64,000 nt of DNA, from assembly GCA_026003755.1 (NCBI GenBank), contig BPHV01000002.1, positions 682,001 to 746,000 of the forward strand, in the 5' to 3' direction. This document shows, piece by piece, positions 9,857-22,053 of this stretch. Position 1 is the stretch's first letter; every line of letters starts with the position of its first letter. The notes under the pieces were generated by a model. It saw only the letters and a list, made by a program, of their open reading frames with translations. It had not been told where the DNA came from and made no database searches. This DNA is from Candidatus Roseilinea sp. GTDB lineage: Bacteria > Chloroflexota > Anaerolineae > J036 > Brachytrichaceae. The position numbers and the translations under genes are program-made.

Positions 9857-10913
9857 GCGCGCACGAGAGCGCGTCTTCGCCATGTGCGCCTTCGCCATCT
9901 GCCGGCAAGGCGCGAGATTCCAGATGAATGGAGGCCGAATGGGTGTTCTTGAGCGCTGTCCCCTCGGCTGCGACCGGAGACCAGACCGGCTGATGGACGC
10001 GCGCGGCGGTGTGGCGCGCCATCAACATCGTCGAGGTCATGTGCACGAAGCCAAGCTCGTCCAGGATCGGGAGCATCCAGCTCTGGTAGTGCCGCACGGT
10101 GAGATAAACCGGCCGCCAAGCGCGCCGCATCAGATGCGCCAGCGCGAAGCGGAGGGTGGGCAACGCGTCCTGCTCGGCGTCAGGCCGGAAGAGCGCTTGC
10201 ATGCCGTAGCCACGCTTGCCCTGACGCACCGAAACGTGCGCGACCAGCTCGTTGCCGCGCATTAACACAAAGCCGCGATCCATGCGATGCATCGAGCGCA
10301 GCAGGTCGAACGACACTTCGGCCTGGTACGTCATCTTCGGCGCAGCGCGCAAGTGCAACGCTTTGATCAGCGGCTCGTCGTCTTTGGTCTGCTCGCGCAG
10401 CCCGTTGACTTCTGGCAACGACGCCAGGTTCGGCTTGTTGGCTAGCTTGAGGACATCCTGTTGGATGAGCGGGACGAAGCCGGCGGCTTGCAACGCTTCA
10501 GCCTCGCCGCCCATTTCAGGGGCTTCGGCGACGATATGATGCGCCCCGCGCTGAGCCGCTTCGACGGCAAATTCCTGCGCGAGATACATCCACGCCTCCA
10601 TCAACTCATCCGATTGTGCGTGAGGCGCCATCAACACAAGCGCAGCGCGCCGACAGCTCGCCGCGCTATCTTCGGCGCTGTTGCCGTTCGCACCCGGCAG
10701 CACATACATTACGCCAAAGGCTTCAATATCACGATCGGCGTCGCGTTCGACCAGCACCACGGCGTGGTCGCGCCCGCCCCCCAAATACGAGCGAATCGCA
10801 TCGCGCAGCGGATTTACCCCTTCAACCGCCACCAGCTCGCAGGCCAGCGGCCGGGCCAGCGCGGTCAGCCGCTGAACGACGCTTACATCACGGATGTCGA
10901 ACGGACGAATCAT
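9828..10913 (-). CDS. GNAT-like acetyltransferase (tandem domain)
   Basis: The ATG at 10913 is preferred to a TTG at 10934 because the fold begins at MIRPFDIRDVSVVQRL, the usual first strand of GNAT proteins. There appear to be two halves. Residues about 1-165 end with an AEAPEMGGEAEALQAAGFVPL stretch, and residues 175-310 end with VRHYQSWMLPILDELGFVHM; both have the strand-then-helix end of a GNAT domain. The C-terminal 50 residues are low complexity and lie over the start of the R3H ATPase gene. Substrate unknown. First gene of the minus-strand operon. Confidence 0.65.
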   Translation of the reverse strand: MIRPFDIRDVSVVQRLTALARPLACELVAVEGVNPLRDAIRSYLGGGRDHAVVLVERDADRDIEAFGVMYVLPGANGNSAEDSAASCRRAALVLMAPHAQSDELMEAWMYLAQEFAVEAAQRGAHHIVAEAPEMGGEAEALQAAGFVPLIQQDVLKLANKPNLASLPEVNGLREQTKDDEPLIKALHLRAAPKMTYQAEVSFDLLRSMHRMDRGFVLMRGNELVAHVSVRQGKRGYGMQALFRPDAEQDALPTLRFALAHLMRRAWRPVYLTVRHYQSWMLPILDELGFVHMTSTMLMARHTAARVHQPVWSPVAAEGTALKNTHSASIHLESRALPADGEGAHGEDALSCAHDYARTANH

Positions 10914-11053
10914 CCTCGAGTGACAATTTGCCAACGCCGGGCACGGATATGCGGCCGGTCGCCGGCCACGTGCCCCGCCCGACTGAGTGAGATTCTACCC
11001 CAGCGCCCACCATCGGGTGCGGGATTCGGGTCACCCTTTACAATCGCGCCGGT

Positions 11054-12184
11054 ATGAACTACTTCCGAGAACAAATCCTGACCTTGCCCCAACTCATCGC
11101 AGAGATATCGGAAGCCTTCCTCAACGAAGCTGCGCGCGCCCTCGACGACCATTTCTGTCGCGCCTTGGAGCGGCTTTACGTCATCGGCTGTGGCGATAGC
11201 CACTTCGCTGCGCTGGCCACCGAGTTCGCGTTCGAGTCTATCGCCGGCGTGGCCACCGAAGCACAGAATGCCATGACCTTCTCACGCTACGGCGTGATCC
11301 ACTTTGATGCGCCGGGGTTCGCGCCGCGCGCAAGCGCCAGCGCGGTGATCGGCGTCTCAGTCTCCGGCGGCGTCTCGCGCACCATCGAGGGCATATTGCG
11401 CGCGAAAGCGCGAGGCTTGCGCACTTTTGCCGTGACCAACAGCGAACAGACGCCCATCGCTCAGGCCGCCGGCGCCGTGCTGACCACTCGCGCGCCCGAC
11501 GTGCCCAACGCGGCCGGCGTGCAAGTGCCCGGCGCGCGCTCGTACTTCGCCTCAATGGTGATGCTGTACTCCTGCGCGCTGCGCATAGCGGCAGCCCGCG
11601 AGCGTGACGTGCGCGTCTGGCGCACCCACCTATCGGACATGGGCCGCTGGGCGCAACACACGATCGAGATGAGCGACGTGCCGGCGCGCGCGTTGGCCGA
11701 GCGCACCCTCGACGCAGGGGAGTTCGTGTTCTGCGGCAGCGGGCCGAACTTCGGCACGGCGCAGTTCTGCGCGGCGAAGGTGCTGGAGGCGAGCGGCGAC
11801 TCGGCCATCGGCCAGGACGTGGAGGAGTGGGCGCACTTACAGTATTTCGCCAAGGCGGTGGACACGCCGACGTTTCTCATCTCGGCAAACGAGCGCGACG
11901 CCAGCCGCGCCGCCGAGGTGAAGACGGCGATGCAGGCCATCGGACGGCGCGTGATCGAGGTCTCTCCACAAGGCGCAGCGATTTCAGCCGACGGCTTTCA
12001 TCTGCCCTATGCGCCATGCCCGGAGGTCTTCTCGCCACTGCTGGCATGTATCCCGGCGATGCTGTTCGCGGCCCACCGCGCAGAGTTGCTGGGCGAGCCG
12101 TATTTCCGTGCTTTCGGCGGCGGACGCAGCATCGAAGGCGGCGGGGGCATCAGCCGCATCCGCACCAGCGCGCTGGTCGTTTGA
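11054..12184 (+). CDS. SIS-domain sugar-phosphate isomerase family protein
   Basis: This 376-residue protein has two SIS (sugar isomerase) domains. The first includes YVIGCGDSHFAALATEF and the SVSGGVSRTIEGI loop, which corresponds to the phosphosugar-binding serine loop. The second contains FVFCGSGPNFGTAQFCAAK and the acidic segment DVEEWAHLQYF. This matches GlmS isomerase-half / AgaS-like proteins without the glutaminase domain. It likely binds an amino- or keto-sugar phosphate in the cytosol. The gene is divergent from the GNAT-led operon, with a 140 bp shared upstream region. Confidence 0.82.
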   Translation: MNYFREQILTLPQLIAEISEAFLNEAARALDDHFCRALERLYVIGCGDSHFAALATEFAFESIAGVATEAQNAMTFSRYGVIHFDAPGFAPRASASAVIGVSVSGGVSRTIEGILRAKARGLRTFAVTNSEQTPIAQAAGAVLTTRAPDVPNAAGVQVPGARSYFASMVMLYSCALRIAAARERDVRVWRTHLSDMGRWAQHTIEMSDVPARALAERTLDAGEFVFCGSGPNFGTAQFCAAKVLEASGDSAIGQDVEEWAHLQYFAKAVDTPTFLISANERDASRAAEVKTAMQAIGRRVIEVSPQGAAISADGFHLPYAPCPEVFSPLLACIPAMLFAAHRAELLGEPYFRAFGGGRSIEGGGGISRIRTSALVV

Positions 12185-17311: not shown

Positions 17312-18625
17312 ATGAGTTCTGCAAAAGTCCTCTTCGATCAGGCCCAGCAGGTGCTCCCCGGCGGCGTGACGGCCACGGCGCGCTTTAACAAGGCGCTAGG
17401 GCGCCCGTTCTACATTGCGCGAGGCGATGGCGCGTACGTGTTCGATCTGGATGAGCGCCCCTACGTAGACCTGTGCACCTCGCACGGCGCATCGTTGCTC
17501 GGCCACAATCACCCGGCGATCAAAGCCGCGGTGATGCGCGCGCTGGAGCTGGGGATTATTTGTGCGGCGGAGACGGAATACCAGGTGGCGCTGGCGCAGA
17601 AATTACGCGCGCGGGTGCCTTGCGCGGAGATGGCGCGTTTCTCATCCAGCGGCACCGAGACGATGATGCACGGCCTACGGCTGGCACGCGCGGCAACCGG
17701 CCGCGAGAAGGTCATCAAGTTCGAGGGGCACTTTCACGGCTATTCGGACTTTCTGAACTTCAGTTGGGCGCCGCCGCTGGCGCAGGCCGGTCCGGCCTGC
17801 ACGCCGCTGCCCTACCCCGAATCCACTGGCATCCCTGCCGTAACTGCCCAGACGATCATCATTGCGCCTTTCAACGACCCAGACGCACTGGAAGCAATCT
17901 TCGAGCGGCACGGCCACGAGGTCGCCGCGTTGGTCATGGAGCCGATCAACTACGATTCCGGCTGCATCCCGCCGCAGCCGGGCTTCGTCCAACGTTGTCG
18001 CGAGCTCTGCGATCACTACGGCGCGCTGCTGTTCTTCGACGAGGTGTTGACGGCCTTCCGCGTGGCGCCGGGCGGCGCACAACAATATCTGGGCGTGACG
18101 CCAGACCTGGCCGTGCTGGGCAAAGCGTTTGGCGGGGGCATGCCGATCAGCGCGCTGGTGGGGCGGCGCGAGGTGATGATGCATCTGAAGCCGGCCGGGC
18201 GCGCCGAGATGAGCGGCACCTACCTGGCACATCTGACCGCCGCGCTGGCGGCCGACGCGGCGCTGGACGAGTACGGCCGGCCGGGGTTCTACGAGCGCCT
18301 CGACGCGCTAGGGGAGTACTTCTACGGCGCCTTTCAGGAGCTGATCGCGCGCAGCGGCGTGAAGGTGCGCTTGCAATACATCGGGCCGCGCTTCGGGCTG
18401 TACTTCGGCCTCGACCCAGATCAGCCCGTGGTGAACTACCGGCAGGCTGCGCAGCAGGACCACGAAGCGTTTTTAACCTTCGTGCGCGGATGTATCCGGC
18501 GCGGCGCGTATGTGCACGTCTCGGCGCACCACGGCTTCTCGGCAGCGCATACCGAGGCCGACCTAGATCGCGCGCTGGAGGCCATCGCGGGCGCGCTGGA
18601 GGATGTAAAGCAGAATTGCGGATGA
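17312..18625 (+). CDS. PLP-dependent class III aminotransferase, glutamate-1-semialdehyde-mutase-like
   Basis: The 437-residue protein has the HemL-like layout: an N-terminal VLPGGVTATARF segment, SSSGTETMMHGLRLAR (phosphate loop, about 111-126), FFDEVLTAFR with D243 against the pyridine ring, and the Schiff-base lysine K271 in LGKAFGGGMPIS. Some residues around the GSA mutase active site differ, and such paralogues often act on other amino-ketones. No other heme-pathway genes lie nearby, so I do not call it hemL. It is divergent from the DUF2961 gene. Confidence 0.85.
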   Translation: MSSAKVLFDQAQQVLPGGVTATARFNKALGRPFYIARGDGAYVFDLDERPYVDLCTSHGASLLGHNHPAIKAAVMRALELGIICAAETEYQVALAQKLRARVPCAEMARFSSSGTETMMHGLRLARAATGREKVIKFEGHFHGYSDFLNFSWAPPLAQAGPACTPLPYPESTGIPAVTAQTIIIAPFNDPDALEAIFERHGHEVAALVMEPINYDSGCIPPQPGFVQRCRELCDHYGALLFFDEVLTAFRVAPGGAQQYLGVTPDLAVLGKAFGGGMPISALVGRREVMMHLKPAGRAEMSGTYLAHLTAALAADAALDEYGRPGFYERLDALGEYFYGAFQELIARSGVKVRLQYIGPRFGLYFGLDPDQPVVNYRQAAQQDHEAFLTFVRGCIRRGAYVHVSAHHGFSAAHTEADLDRALEAIAGALEDVKQNCG

Positions 18626-18637
18626 AGAAAGGGAAGA

Positions 18638-18680
18638 CATCCATGCTGCGCGGACTTGTCAGGCCACAGCAGCATGGATG
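18638..18680 (-). terminator. Long inverted repeat ending the sigma/Mau-like operon
   Basis: A perfect 12 bp inverted repeat (18638-18649 with 18669-18680) and a 19-base loop lies between the convergent genes. On the minus strand it follows the 97-residue gene by 11 bases and is followed by a pyrimidine-rich tract (TCTTCCCTTTCTTC), consistent with a terminator for that operon. Confidence 0.5.
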
Positions 18681-18691
18681 CCAACCGTTGA

Positions 18692-18985
18692 TTAGCTGAG
18701 CAAGCGCGCCACAAAACCGACGGCCACGCGCTTGGCCAAACCTCTGTGATCGCCGTTGACGGCCTCGGCGAGGTAGGCGACGCCGTCGGCATCGCTCTTG
18801 GCGCCGGGTATCTCGTAGTACTCGATGATGACCCTGCCCAAAAACTTGCTGTCCTTGCCGGCGGCACTGATGATCGGCTCTTTCGAACTTAACACTTCGG
18901 GAATATTCGCCTTGAGAATTTGCTTGGTCCACTGACCAGGCTGCGGCTCGGTTTGGGCGACGCCGCTGTTCCATCGTTCTGACAT
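18692..18985 (-). CDS. Small soluble protein of unknown function, last gene of the Mau-like operon
   Basis: The 97-residue protein has a clear AGGAGG Shine-Dalgarno 8 bases before its ATG, so it is a real gene. It has no signal peptide and no cysteine. It contains QILKANIPEVLSSKEPI and FLGRVIIEYYEIPG. I do not recognise the family. It is the last gene after the 14-cysteine Tat peptide, 33 bp downstream and in the same direction. Its role is unknown; it could be a chaperone or partner for the peptide. Confidence 0.7.
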   Translation of the reverse strand: MSERWNSGVAQTEPQPGQWTKQILKANIPEVLSSKEPIISAAGKDSKFLGRVIIEYYEIPGAKSDADGVAYLAEAVNGDHRGLAKRVAVGFVARLLS

Positions 18986-19018
18986 AGCATGACCTCCTGT
19001 TTGAATTACTCAATCCTT

Positions 19019-19345
19019 TTACCCACACGCGACGCATGCGCAATCGAATACGCATGGATCGCCGTGCCAGCTGCCGTAGGCATATACCCGGCGAGGAGTG
19101 CAGTTGCATCCGCCACATACGCACCAACATGTCAGCCCACCGCTGGTGCACTGCGATACGCACGGGTCGCACGGGCCGAAGCATTCGCCTGGGCAGCCGG
19201 CTGCAACAACCTTCGCCGCTCGTCCGATGGCAGAGAGGCCGCCGGCGAGCGCCACACCTAAGGCTGCCACTCCCTTCAAAAAGCCGCGACGCGAGAGCTG
19301 GTGCATGACGAAACCCGTCGTTCGATCGGCCAAGCCTTCGATCAC
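19019..19345 (-). CDS. Tat-exported cysteine-rich protein, MauA-like candidate
   Basis: The GTG at 19345 is chosen because AAGGAGG lies 8 bases upstream and it overlaps the thioredoxin gene by 4 bp. The 108-residue product has a twin-arginine signal (SRRGFLKGVAALGVALAGG). The mature part of about 58 residues has 14 cysteines, enough for seven disulfides, and two tryptophans: W74 in TCWCVC and W93 in AYGSWHGDPC. The methylamine dehydrogenase small subunit (MauA) is likewise exported, cysteine-dense and uses two tryptophans for its TTQ cofactor. The SGGLT and SW elements recall MauA, but the protein is half its length. Homology is therefore a hypothesis, supported by the MauE and MauD neighbours. 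Confidence 0.75.
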   Translation of the reverse strand: MIEGLADRTTGFVMHQLSRRGFLKGVAALGVALAGGLSAIGRAAKVVAAGCPGECFGPCDPCVSQCTSGGLTCWCVCGGCNCTPRRVYAYGSWHGDPCVFDCACVACG

Positions 19346-20004
19346 ATTCGATCACCTCCTTCAGGCGCTGAATGAAGTTCTCTCGACGCCGCATAGGCCG
19401 CCGGCACGATCAAACCGATCTCAGCATGCGCCTTGTGCTGAATCGGTGGCGCGATGCGAAGCGCCTTGTATATCCACTGGCCGGCATGCGGATTGAACGT
19501 TTGACTGACAAGGCGATGGCGTTCGTCCACAACCAAGCCGGTGGGCACGGCGATCAGGCTCAAGCGGCGCATCGCTGCGCCTTCGACGTCGAAGAGCGCA
19601 CCGATCGAAGAAGCGAGCCGAGGGTGGGCTTGCAGCAGCCGGCGCGCCTCAGCTTTATCCCCCACCATGACAAGCACGATGCCGCGACCGGTGACATCAC
19701 GGTCATCGAGCGTTTCGAGCTGTTCCAGCACTGCGCGGCAAGCGGCGCACGTGCCGCTCAAAAAGAGAATCACGCCGCCACGTTGCTTGAGGCGATCTCT
19801 GACCAAGACCATCGAACCATCTTGGTCAGGCAGATACAGATCTGGCAACACATCACCGACCTCGAGGGAAGTAATCGGCGGCGCAGCCATGCGCCAATGT
19901 TGCTGCATGGTGCTCAGTTGGCGCAACACGCCGATCACCAACAAACCGAGCAGGAGCAACAACGCCCATTGCGCCAAAAAGGCGATCAACCAGATTCCTT
20001 GCAT
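19342..20004 (-). CDS. MauD-like membrane-anchored thioredoxin-fold protein
   Basis: The 220-residue protein has one N-terminal membrane helix (about residues 8-28) followed by LRQLST, then a thioredoxin/AhpC-TSA fold. The redox motif is C86-A-A-C89 in FLSGTCAACRAVLEQL. The helix, the short linker and a C-x-x-C in an extracytoplasmic domain are the MauD layout. MauD is needed for correct disulfides in the MauA subunit. It sits between the MauE-like gene (3 bp gap) and the Cys-rich exported gene (4 bp overlap), the same order as mauE-mauD-mauA. Confidence 0.85.
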   Translation of the reverse strand: MQGIWLIAFLAQWALLLLLGLLVIGVLRQLSTMQQHWRMAAPPITSLEVGDVLPDLYLPDQDGSMVLVRDRLKQRGGVILFLSGTCAACRAVLEQLETLDDRDVTGRGIVLVMVGDKAEARRLLQAHPRLASSIGALFDVEGAAMRRLSLIAVPTGLVVDERHRLVSQTFNPHAGQWIYKALRIAPPIQHKAHAEIGLIVPAAYAASRELHSAPEGGDRM

Positions 20005-20007
20005 GAT

Positions 20008-20568
20008 CTATACCTGTGGCTTCACAAACACCACGCTGCCCTCGCTCAAGGCAAACACGATCATCATCAGGTTCACCACGACGACGAGCAAGCCGGCCAA
20101 CTCAGACGCGCCCAACCCAAGCAACCAAACTGGAGTAAACGTCCGCGCAGGATGCGCCCAAGCCCAGCCGGTCATCCATAAGGCCATCCCAAGCAAGATC
20201 AGGTTGCGCACGAGCGCACTTGGACCGATCGCAGCGCTACTCTCGCCGAAGCAGTTACACGACAGATTGTTTCCCCGCCGGAGATGCGCGGCGATCACCA
20301 CAGAGAAGATGCCGAGCAGCGTGCCGGCCATCGCGGGGAGAAGCGCCGGCCAGAACCCCACCAGCAATCCAACGCCGAGCGCGAACTCAGCCGGCGGCAA
20401 TCCCAACGCAGCCGACTGTGCTGCTGCGCCTGACAAGCGATGCATCGTCAATCGCTCTACGGCGTCGCGCAGCGTTCCCCAGGTGCGTAGCTTGCCAACG
20501 GCTGCCAAGATGAACACGCAGCCAAGCGACAAGTGCAGTGCAGCGATAAGCGCTTGATCTACAGTCAT
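20008..20568 (-). CDS. MauE-like (DoxX/MauE family) integral membrane protein
   Basis: The protein has 186 residues and about four membrane helices. The family-specific cytoplasmic loop motif C-x-C-F-G is present (LSCNCFGE, C104 and C106). In methylotrophs MauE works with MauD to oxidise or isomerise disulfides in the dehydrogenase small subunit. Here it directly precedes the MauD-like gene and overlaps the propeller gene by 4 bp. Confidence 0.88.
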   Translation of the reverse strand: MTVDQALIAALHLSLGCVFILAAVGKLRTWGTLRDAVERLTMHRLSGAAAQSAALGLPPAEFALGVGLLVGFWPALLPAMAGTLLGIFSVVIAAHLRRGNNLSCNCFGESSAAIGPSALVRNLILLGMALWMTGWAWAHPARTFTPVWLLGLGASELAGLLVVVVNLMMIVFALSEGSVVFVKPQV

Positions 20569-21371
20569 GGCGTCACCTTGCTTTTCCAGACAGGAATGTG
20601 CTTGATATCCACGCGATCTTTGGACGTCAGCACGATGATGACGCGGTCGTCGTAGCCAAAATGCACGGCTGCAATGCCCTCGTCTCGATACGAGAACGTT
20701 GCAACGTGCTCACCGGACTGTGTATCGCGAAGCTCCACCACTGCACCGCTGGATATGGCCAGCCAATTGCCATCGCCGCTGAGAATGACGATGTCATCGG
20801 ACGCCATCAACTTGCGTTGCCACGCGCGCGCACCTTGATCCACCAGCCAGACGGACACGCGGTCGGGTTCCCTGATGACAAGCCGAACCCCGCTCGGGTC
20901 CAAGAGAAGCCGCACCGGCGGGGTCACCGTGGTCAGAGCGCGGATGGGGTGCTCGCGTTCGAGATCCCAGACAGTGACACGATAGCGGCTGTCCACGAAA
21001 GCGACGCGCGATCCATCCGCGCTTACTGCCATGGGCGAGCCTTCCGCTATGGCCGGCGACTCTTTGCCCACCGCGGCGCCCGTCGGAGGACGCGATGACC
21101 AAGCGCCGGCAGACGCAAGTGCTATCCATACCCCGACGGCAACTAAGACAACGAGGAAGCCCAGCGAAGCCAGTGCAGATAACGGATAGCGCCAACGCTG
21201 GGACGCGTCGAGATCGGCCCCTTGAGACAACTTGCGCCGAACCCTCCCCATTACATCTGCGTGGTCGGATGCACCACGCACGGCCAGCGTGTTCAGCGCT
21301 TGCCGCACGATCGCATCCTCATCGCGTTGATCGTGGTTGTGGAAACGGTCTTGAGTCATTGGCTTTCTCAT
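20565..21371 (-). CDS. Membrane-anchored WD40-like beta-propeller protein (possible anti-sigma factor)
   Basis: The 268-residue protein has a short cytosolic N-terminus (about 65 residues, charged and helical), one membrane helix (about 66-90) and an extracytoplasmic part with WD-like strands: MAVSADGSRVAFVDS, VTVWDLEREHPIRAL, DGNWLAISSGAVVELRD and IAAVHFGYDDRVIIVLT. The topology is that of an anti-sigma factor next to its sigma gene, whose 3' end it overlaps by 53 bp. It also holds the place of mauB, whose product is a seven-bladed propeller, but only about four blades fit here. Signal reception is the more likely role. Confidence 0.65.
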   Translation of the reverse strand: MRKPMTQDRFHNHDQRDEDAIVRQALNTLAVRGASDHADVMGRVRRKLSQGADLDASQRWRYPLSALASLGFLVVLVAVGVWIALASAGAWSSRPPTGAAVGKESPAIAEGSPMAVSADGSRVAFVDSRYRVTVWDLEREHPIRALTTVTPPVRLLLDPSGVRLVIREPDRVSVWLVDQGARAWQRKLMASDDIVILSGDGNWLAISSGAVVELRDTQSGEHVATFSYRDEGIAAVHFGYDDRVIIVLTSKDRVDIKHIPVWKSKVTP

Positions 21372-21972
21372 GCTGCCGCAAGTCAGTTCGAAGAAACCGA
21401 CGTTCGCCGGCTTCTTCCCATTGACGCAACACCTCTCGTAACGTCTTTCTCGCTCGGTGCAGCCGCCACTTGACTGTTCCCAGTGGAACGTTCATGAGCG
21501 CAGCGATCTCGCGTTCCTCCAGATCCATGTAGAAGCGCAAGACGACGGTCGTCCGTTGTTCACCCGACAAGCGCCACAACGCCGCTCTGACGGCGTACAG
21601 CGATTCGTTGCGCTCGGCGATGTCATCTGGCTGAAGCGAGTTACATGGCCGCTCCTCGGCCGTCTCCCACGGCGAATGTCGCCGGTTTCGACGCAACCAC
21701 TTCAGCGCCAGATTGACGACGATGCGATAAAACCACGGCGCAAACGGACGCTTCGGGTCGTACTGATGAATGCGCTCGAAGGCCACGATGAATGCGTCGG
21801 CGACGACGTCTTCAGCTACATCGCGGCTGCCCACGATGAGAAAGGCCATGCGCAATGCGCGCAATTGGTACAGGTGGACGAGCACTTCGAGTCCCCTGAC
21901 ATCTTTTTGCCGAAGCAGCGCAATTGCGACCGATTCATCTTCGGTCACAGCCTCGTCGTTGCTCAACTGCAT
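21319..21972 (-). CDS. ECF-family RNA polymerase sigma factor
   Basis: The 217-residue protein has sigma region 2 (VAEDVVADAFIVAFERIHQY, with RPFAPWFYRIVVNLALKWLRR) and region 4 (LSGEQRTTVVLRFYMDLEEREI followed by VPLGTVKWRLHRARKTL). It lacks region 1.1 and region 3, as ECF sigmas do. It is the first gene of the operon leading through the propeller, MauE-like, MauD-like and Cys-rich genes, and probably drives that operon. It diverges from the MlrC gene, leaving an 81 bp intergenic region. Confidence 0.92.
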   Translation of the reverse strand: MQLSNDEAVTEDESVAIALLRQKDVRGLEVLVHLYQLRALRMAFLIVGSRDVAEDVVADAFIVAFERIHQYDPKRPFAPWFYRIVVNLALKWLRRNRRHSPWETAEERPCNSLQPDDIAERNESLYAVRAALWRLSGEQRTTVVLRFYMDLEEREIAALMNVPLGTVKWRLHRARKTLREVLRQWEEAGERRFLRTDLRQHEKANDSRPFPQPRSTR

Positions 21973-22053
21973 CTACCTTCAATATCCACAGCATGGGGGA
22001 AAGGTTTGCCTTCGTTCTGCATCGCGGCTATGCTGGTGACTTGGAGATCACAA

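Follow-up and report, generated by a model that had tools for sequence, protein, structure and literature searches.

The MauE-MauD pair is thought to oxidise the light chain of methylamine dehydrogenase, whose gene holds the same place in the mau operon as the peptide gene described here, and the two proteins have so far been studied as accessories of this one enzyme. Small exported peptides with an adjacent cytosolic partner are familiar from another setting, that of bacteriocins and their immunity proteins. The notion that MauE/MauD serve Cys-rich peptides has already been published, as a prediction, for Streptomyces, where decRiPPter proposed three mauE-containing candidate RiPP families, one of them also containing mauD, with precursors of at least eight cysteines (PMC7794033). 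These predicted families were chosen for the presence of transporter, peptidase and regulator genes, and that paper describes as speculative the part that MauE plays in forming disulfides. In the literature that we searched, which covered few subscription papers, the idea of MauE/MauD acting on peptides occurs only in PMC7794033, and nothing was found on the peptide family or on the companion protein reported here. As far as this search extends, the new elements are a peptide family in Chloroflexota, the Tat leader and the tandem copies found in that family, and a companion protein together with the way in which it survives.

The window (the whole stretch of 64,000 nucleotides that was analysed) comes from a hot-spring Chloroflexota bacterium, Candidatus Roseilinea sp., and carries a six-gene operon on the minus strand, with neighbouring genes overlapping by 4 to 53 nt or separated by gaps of 3 to 33 nt. 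The first gene (21319..21972) encodes an ECF sigma factor (PF04542, 5.9e-13; PF08281, 1.9e-12) with orthologues at loci L021 and L068. The second (20565..21371) encodes a single-pass membrane protein with a hydrophobic stretch near residues 65-90 and an extracytoplasmic WD40/propeller-like part (Beta-prop_THOC3, 2.6e-7, far under the curated cut-off); its position and topology suggest a putative anti-sigma factor. In TBLASTN comparisons of ten regions, these two genes accompany the module in Roseilinea only. They are followed by a membrane protein of the MauE family that carries a CNCFG motif (20008..20568; PF07291, 4.3e-21, scoring 76 where the cut-off is 27 bits) and a MauD-like membrane-anchored thioredoxin-fold protein with a CAAC motif (19342..20004; TIGR02661, 1.6e-9, 37.5 bits, under the equivalog cut-off). 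The CxxC of MauD is invariant in all six aligned relatives; the MauD-like protein is likely a disulfide-forming enzyme, to which MauE likely feeds oxidising equivalents. The fifth gene (19019..19345) encodes the Cys-rich peptide, and the sixth (18692..18985) a 97-aa companion with neither a signal sequence nor a cysteine; a Pfam search found no transporter or peptidase gene among the six. Between the window's genome (G000) and a second Roseilinea genome (G218), the tract from 18500 to 22000 that holds the operon is 99.4-100% identical and flanking blocks fall to 77% (at 15-16 kb and 23.5 kb), which looks like a recent exchange between the two species.

Compared with the described systems, the locus shares with mauE-mauD-mauA of methylamine or aromatic amine dehydrogenase the gene order, a Tat leader, a Cys-rich product and the presence of both MauE and MauD, whereas the peptide differs from a TTQ light chain in having about half the mature length and in lacking the Trp pair, a PF02975 match and an accompanying MauB. 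The decRiPPter candidates (PMC7794033) resemble it in that MauE/MauD lie beside a precursor of at least eight cysteines and the rest of the mau cluster is absent; the module in the window differs from them in its Chloroflexota host, its Tat leader, the absence of transporter and peptidase genes from the operon and the conserved 97-aa companion.

The peptide gene starts with a GTG that shares 4 nt with the MauD stop; AAGGAGGTGATC lies directly 5' of this start, with GGAGG 9 nt before the GTG. The ORF encodes 108 aa, and an alternative shorter start at 19306 would give 95 aa. Its Tat signal scores above the TIGR01409 cut-off (22.6 against 16.7 bits) and slightly below that of Pfam TAT_signal (21.7 against 22.7), and TatC is present in the window's genome, as in all eight genomes checked. 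The predicted cleavage site places the mature Cys-rich part at 19022..19198. The C-terminal 59 residues (GCPGEC...ACG) contain 14 cysteines, or 23.7%, several of them in CxxC/CxC clusters. The extreme Cys density on which the preliminary description remarked is therefore borne out, over 59 residues and not 58: among the window's ORFs of 40 aa or more, no other has 14 cysteines in 59 residues, and this density was reached in none of 60 dinucleotide shuffles of the window, where the best value was 11 and the mean of the best values 8.7. Against the PDB the sole match was to a Tat leader (E 0.22), and AlphaFold2 predictions made from three near-identical sequences gave pLDDT values of 45 and 37, too low to be of use.

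The peptide occurs in four genomes of the genus, and the three orthologues outside the window's genome (G218, G248 and G197) are 99, 93 and 88% identical to the window copy. Where dS exceeds zero, dN/dS within the genus is 0.014-0.035 for the mature peptide, 0.19-0.30 for MauD and 0.20-0.32 for MauE; by this measure the mature peptide is under stronger constraint than any other product of the operon. Since orthologues exist in three other genomes and dN/dS is low, the ORF represents a real gene. Three further genus genomes in the class sample (G041, G119 and G258) gave no real peptide match, that in G041 reaching just 35% identity at E 0.007. Weak matches in 13 genomes (E 8e-5 to 0.01) were screened by their Cys content, two of them twice, and discounted as leader or chance matches. 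The G218 copy (L005) is otherwise identical to the window peptide and has the third mature cysteine replaced by tyrosine (GPC to GPY), at a position that is invariant in the eight-row alignment A2, from which the G218 copy is excluded.

The Tat leader, together with the linkage to MauE and MauD with its invariant CxxC, speaks for a peptide that is exported and probably disulfide-bonded, as first proposed. The accompanying claim that nothing nearby except MauD and MauE could guide the folding reverses the evidence, MauD and MauE being the obvious guides; the conserved neighbouring gene at 18692-18985 had been overlooked. The linkage extends well beyond the genus. A MauD profile (A1) was run over 400 Chloroflexota genomes and 40 regions were then taken for inspection, in which small Cys-rich ORFs, diverse in kind, lie downstream of MauE-MauD pairs. 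In these regions such an ORF lies at most 900 bp downstream of 26 of 38 strong MauD genes, a count that excludes weaker MauD matches (E between 1e-18 and 1e-6) and genes close to region ends; other genes have one in 42 of 382 cases (Fisher p 2e-14). Among the 12 misses, L100 and L104 carry a peptide overlapping the end of MauD, and L063 has a true MauA upstream. Homologues of the window peptide itself were found in G400 (two tandem copies), G491, G449, G393, G350 and G515, with a more distant one in G321, and the listed family members have 9 to 16 cysteines. TBLASTN with the window's proteins recovered the order MauE-MauD-peptide-companion in the G400, G491 and G449 regions. At two loci with an intact peptide, G350 and G449, MauD is frameshifted, perhaps through assembly errors. 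Searched against plasmids, the G400 peptide and MauD gave no match.

MauE and MauD look like dedicated disulfide machinery for the peptide and, across Chloroflexota, seem to form a portable pair that serves a wide range of Cys-rich clients. Their role becomes testable on a very small substrate, and the loci point to a reservoir of exported, disulfide-rich peptides that await characterisation. A separate group of MauE-MauD loci, of Ktedonobacterial type (L105-L107, L117 and L123-L131), shows diverse Cys-rich peptides together with an S26 signal peptidase and, by eye, ABC-type genes, and some of the leaders are non-Tat. These loci are likely natural-product clusters, their make-up resembling that of bacteriocin clusters.

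The companion lacks a membrane segment and has no match in Pfam or NCBIfam at the thresholds used. Its profile (A4) matches in 13 of the 400 Chloroflexota genomes, at 16 sites as counted from the match rows. Nine of these adjoin an intact peptide, and at the other seven the peptide is deleted, truncated or absent (G358, G463, G558, two sites in G609 and two in G615); both G609 sites lie close to contig ends and are perhaps one duplicated stretch. All nine intact peptide sites found have the companion alongside. A search of 241 genomes with the peptide profile likewise gave eight sites, all eight with the companion, an association that is not fully independent because the profile was trained on the same sites; G515 is not among the matches listed and may lie outside that sample. 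A search of viral contigs found no companion.

MauD and the peptide are gone from G358 and MauE is in two fragments, all of them being present in its relative G393, and the companion is intact. Compared with the G350 companion it has 2 nonsynonymous and 22 synonymous changes (dN 0.009, dS 0.41), and on these counts the orphan is clearly under constraint. One site in G615 keeps a leader remnant with KK in place of RR and the other a leaderless Cys-rich remnant, both with intact companions. A leaderless mature peptide remnant, 92% identical to the mature part of the G491 peptide, is found in G558, where the companion is frameshifted after codon 7, and the orphan companion at G609 C5 has an internal stop. 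At the sites found, the peptide never occurs without the companion and the companion often occurs without the peptide, which is the pattern that a producer-immunity pair predicts; a companion with a second function would give the same loss pattern. The companion is most likely immunity-like, judging from this distribution. As in bacteriocin and immunity pairs, the partner outlives the peptide and can occur alone; unlike them, the pair in the window has a Tat leader and shows strong sequence constraint. In both module copies of G400 (L099:8500-9069 and 10823-11386) the companion is an internal tandem duplication with two domains per ORF, and in G306 (L109:9576-9908) a 111-aa ORF that follows a Tat Cys-rich peptide and falls below the companion-profile threshold resembles the companion by eye (LEIELW...DD).

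Taken together, we tentatively propose a model, to which we give slightly less than an even chance, in which the operon is a sigma-controlled export module for a Tat peptide with MauE/MauD-formed disulfides and an immunity-like companion, used in antagonism of related bacteria. Expression of the operon would be under the control of the sigma factor, and the peptide would be made with its Tat leader and exported via Tat. At or after membrane passage, MauE-MauD would convert its 14 cysteines into as many as seven disulfides, MauD oxidising the peptide through its CAAC motif and MauE recharging MauD. The product would be a compact secreted or surface disulfide peptide and not a subunit of a TTQ enzyme, and the cytosolic 97-aa companion would protect the producer. 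Since protection of the producer is the most likely role of the companion, the peptide would most likely act against the cells of related bacteria. Several observations speak against this model: there is very little variation in the mature peptide across the genus (dN/dS ~0.02), in contrast to many antagonistic peptides; the operon lacks genes for an exporter or a peptidase; the companion is without a membrane segment; its orphan copies may simply do another job; and two of these, in G609 C5 and G558, are damaged. The frameshifted MauD genes of G350 and G449 and the tyrosine at an invariant Cys position in G218 also count against it. A wider version, which we regard as unlikely, would make these peptides a phylum-wide class, exported by Tat, stapled by MauE/MauD into multi-disulfide products and deployed among related Chloroflexota, and would give them a soluble immunity protein from a family not described before. 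If this were true, the methylamine dehydrogenase machinery would serve bacteria generally as a factory for disulfide peptides, with the TTQ light chain as one of its clients.

The same low dN/dS of the mature part, and the solubility of the companion, fit a possible alternative in which the peptide is an exported disulfide-rich house protein with a structural, redox or metal-handling function, matured by MauE/MauD and serving no antagonism, and the companion is an accessory, for instance a chaperone of the Tat leader or a regulator. Dedicated cytosolic chaperones are common among Tat substrates, and the ECF sigma factor and putative anti-sigma factor suggest an envelope response. Against this account, which we hold possible without thinking it probable, the companion is kept after loss of the peptide, in one case under constraint, and the distribution is patchy, the companion being found in 13 of 400 genomes. 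Whether the companion family acts in immunity or as a chaperone is a clean two-way question.

It is also conceivable, though improbable, that the peptide binds a metal (Zn, Cu or Fe-S), around which it would fold in the cytosol before being exported. Folded cofactor proteins are carried by Tat, and the CxxC/CxC clusters would suit metal ligation; however, the gene is linked to MauE and MauD, proteins of a thiol-oxidising kind, and the number of cysteines varies from 9 to 16 among the homologues.

The preliminary description had further suggested that two tryptophans, in TCWCVC and in GSW, might be crosslinked as in MauA. In the nine-row alignment A7, the TCWCVC Trp is confined to the two Roseilinea rows and so did not hold outside the genus, whereas the GSW Trp stood in eight of nine rows, missing in G321. 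The window peptide has no PF02975 match at E up to 10, nor is there one anywhere in G000 at E up to 1, and the MauB/AauB-type large subunit (PF06433) was found in none of nine genomes, the window's and eight related ones, by a profile that matched all three mau plasmids used as positive controls. With the first Trp unconserved and neither a PF02975 match nor a large subunit found, a TTQ Trp pair is not supported. A MauG-type diheme protein (PF03150) occurs in all four Roseilinea genomes and is absent from all five distant peptide-bearing genomes; G000 has one copy, which lies about 115 kb away from its peptide gene. Comparison of the peptide with MauA by hhalign gave 92% at full length, carried by the Tat leader, and 1% (score 14.8) for the mature part only, a score equalled by 11 of 200 column shuffles and by 14 of 200 with the Cys columns fixed. 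Since the match is leader-driven and the mature part scores within the shuffles, homology of the mature peptide to MauA was rejected and we claim none beyond the leader and the operon place; a distant kinship is possible because the alignment matches the GSW Trp to the MauA Trp, with a Cys to Trp distance of +11 in both. That the peptide is a reduced MauA-type light chain carrying a quinone derived from Trp (TTQ, or at GSW a variant made from a single Trp) is very improbable, since its mauA place in mauE-mauD-mauA, its MauA-like Tat leader and the retained, MauA-aligned GSW Trp are set against an unconserved first Trp, the lack of a PF02975 match, a mature-only profile match no better than column shuffles, the large subunit not found in nine genomes, five distant peptide genomes without a MauG-type protein and the missing GSW Trp in G321.

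Elsewhere in the genus, G218 carries a mau-like cluster (L023; L063:15441-18667) of a light chain, a membrane protein, a 454-aa protein, MauE and MauD. The 454-aa protein gives no PF06433 match, stands in the place of the large subunit and has weak PQQ-repeat similarity. The light chain (L023) is a true one, scoring 31.1 bits with PF02975 against a cut-off of 25 and matching PDB 3c75_L at 2.1e-9, with both TTQ Trp columns filled.
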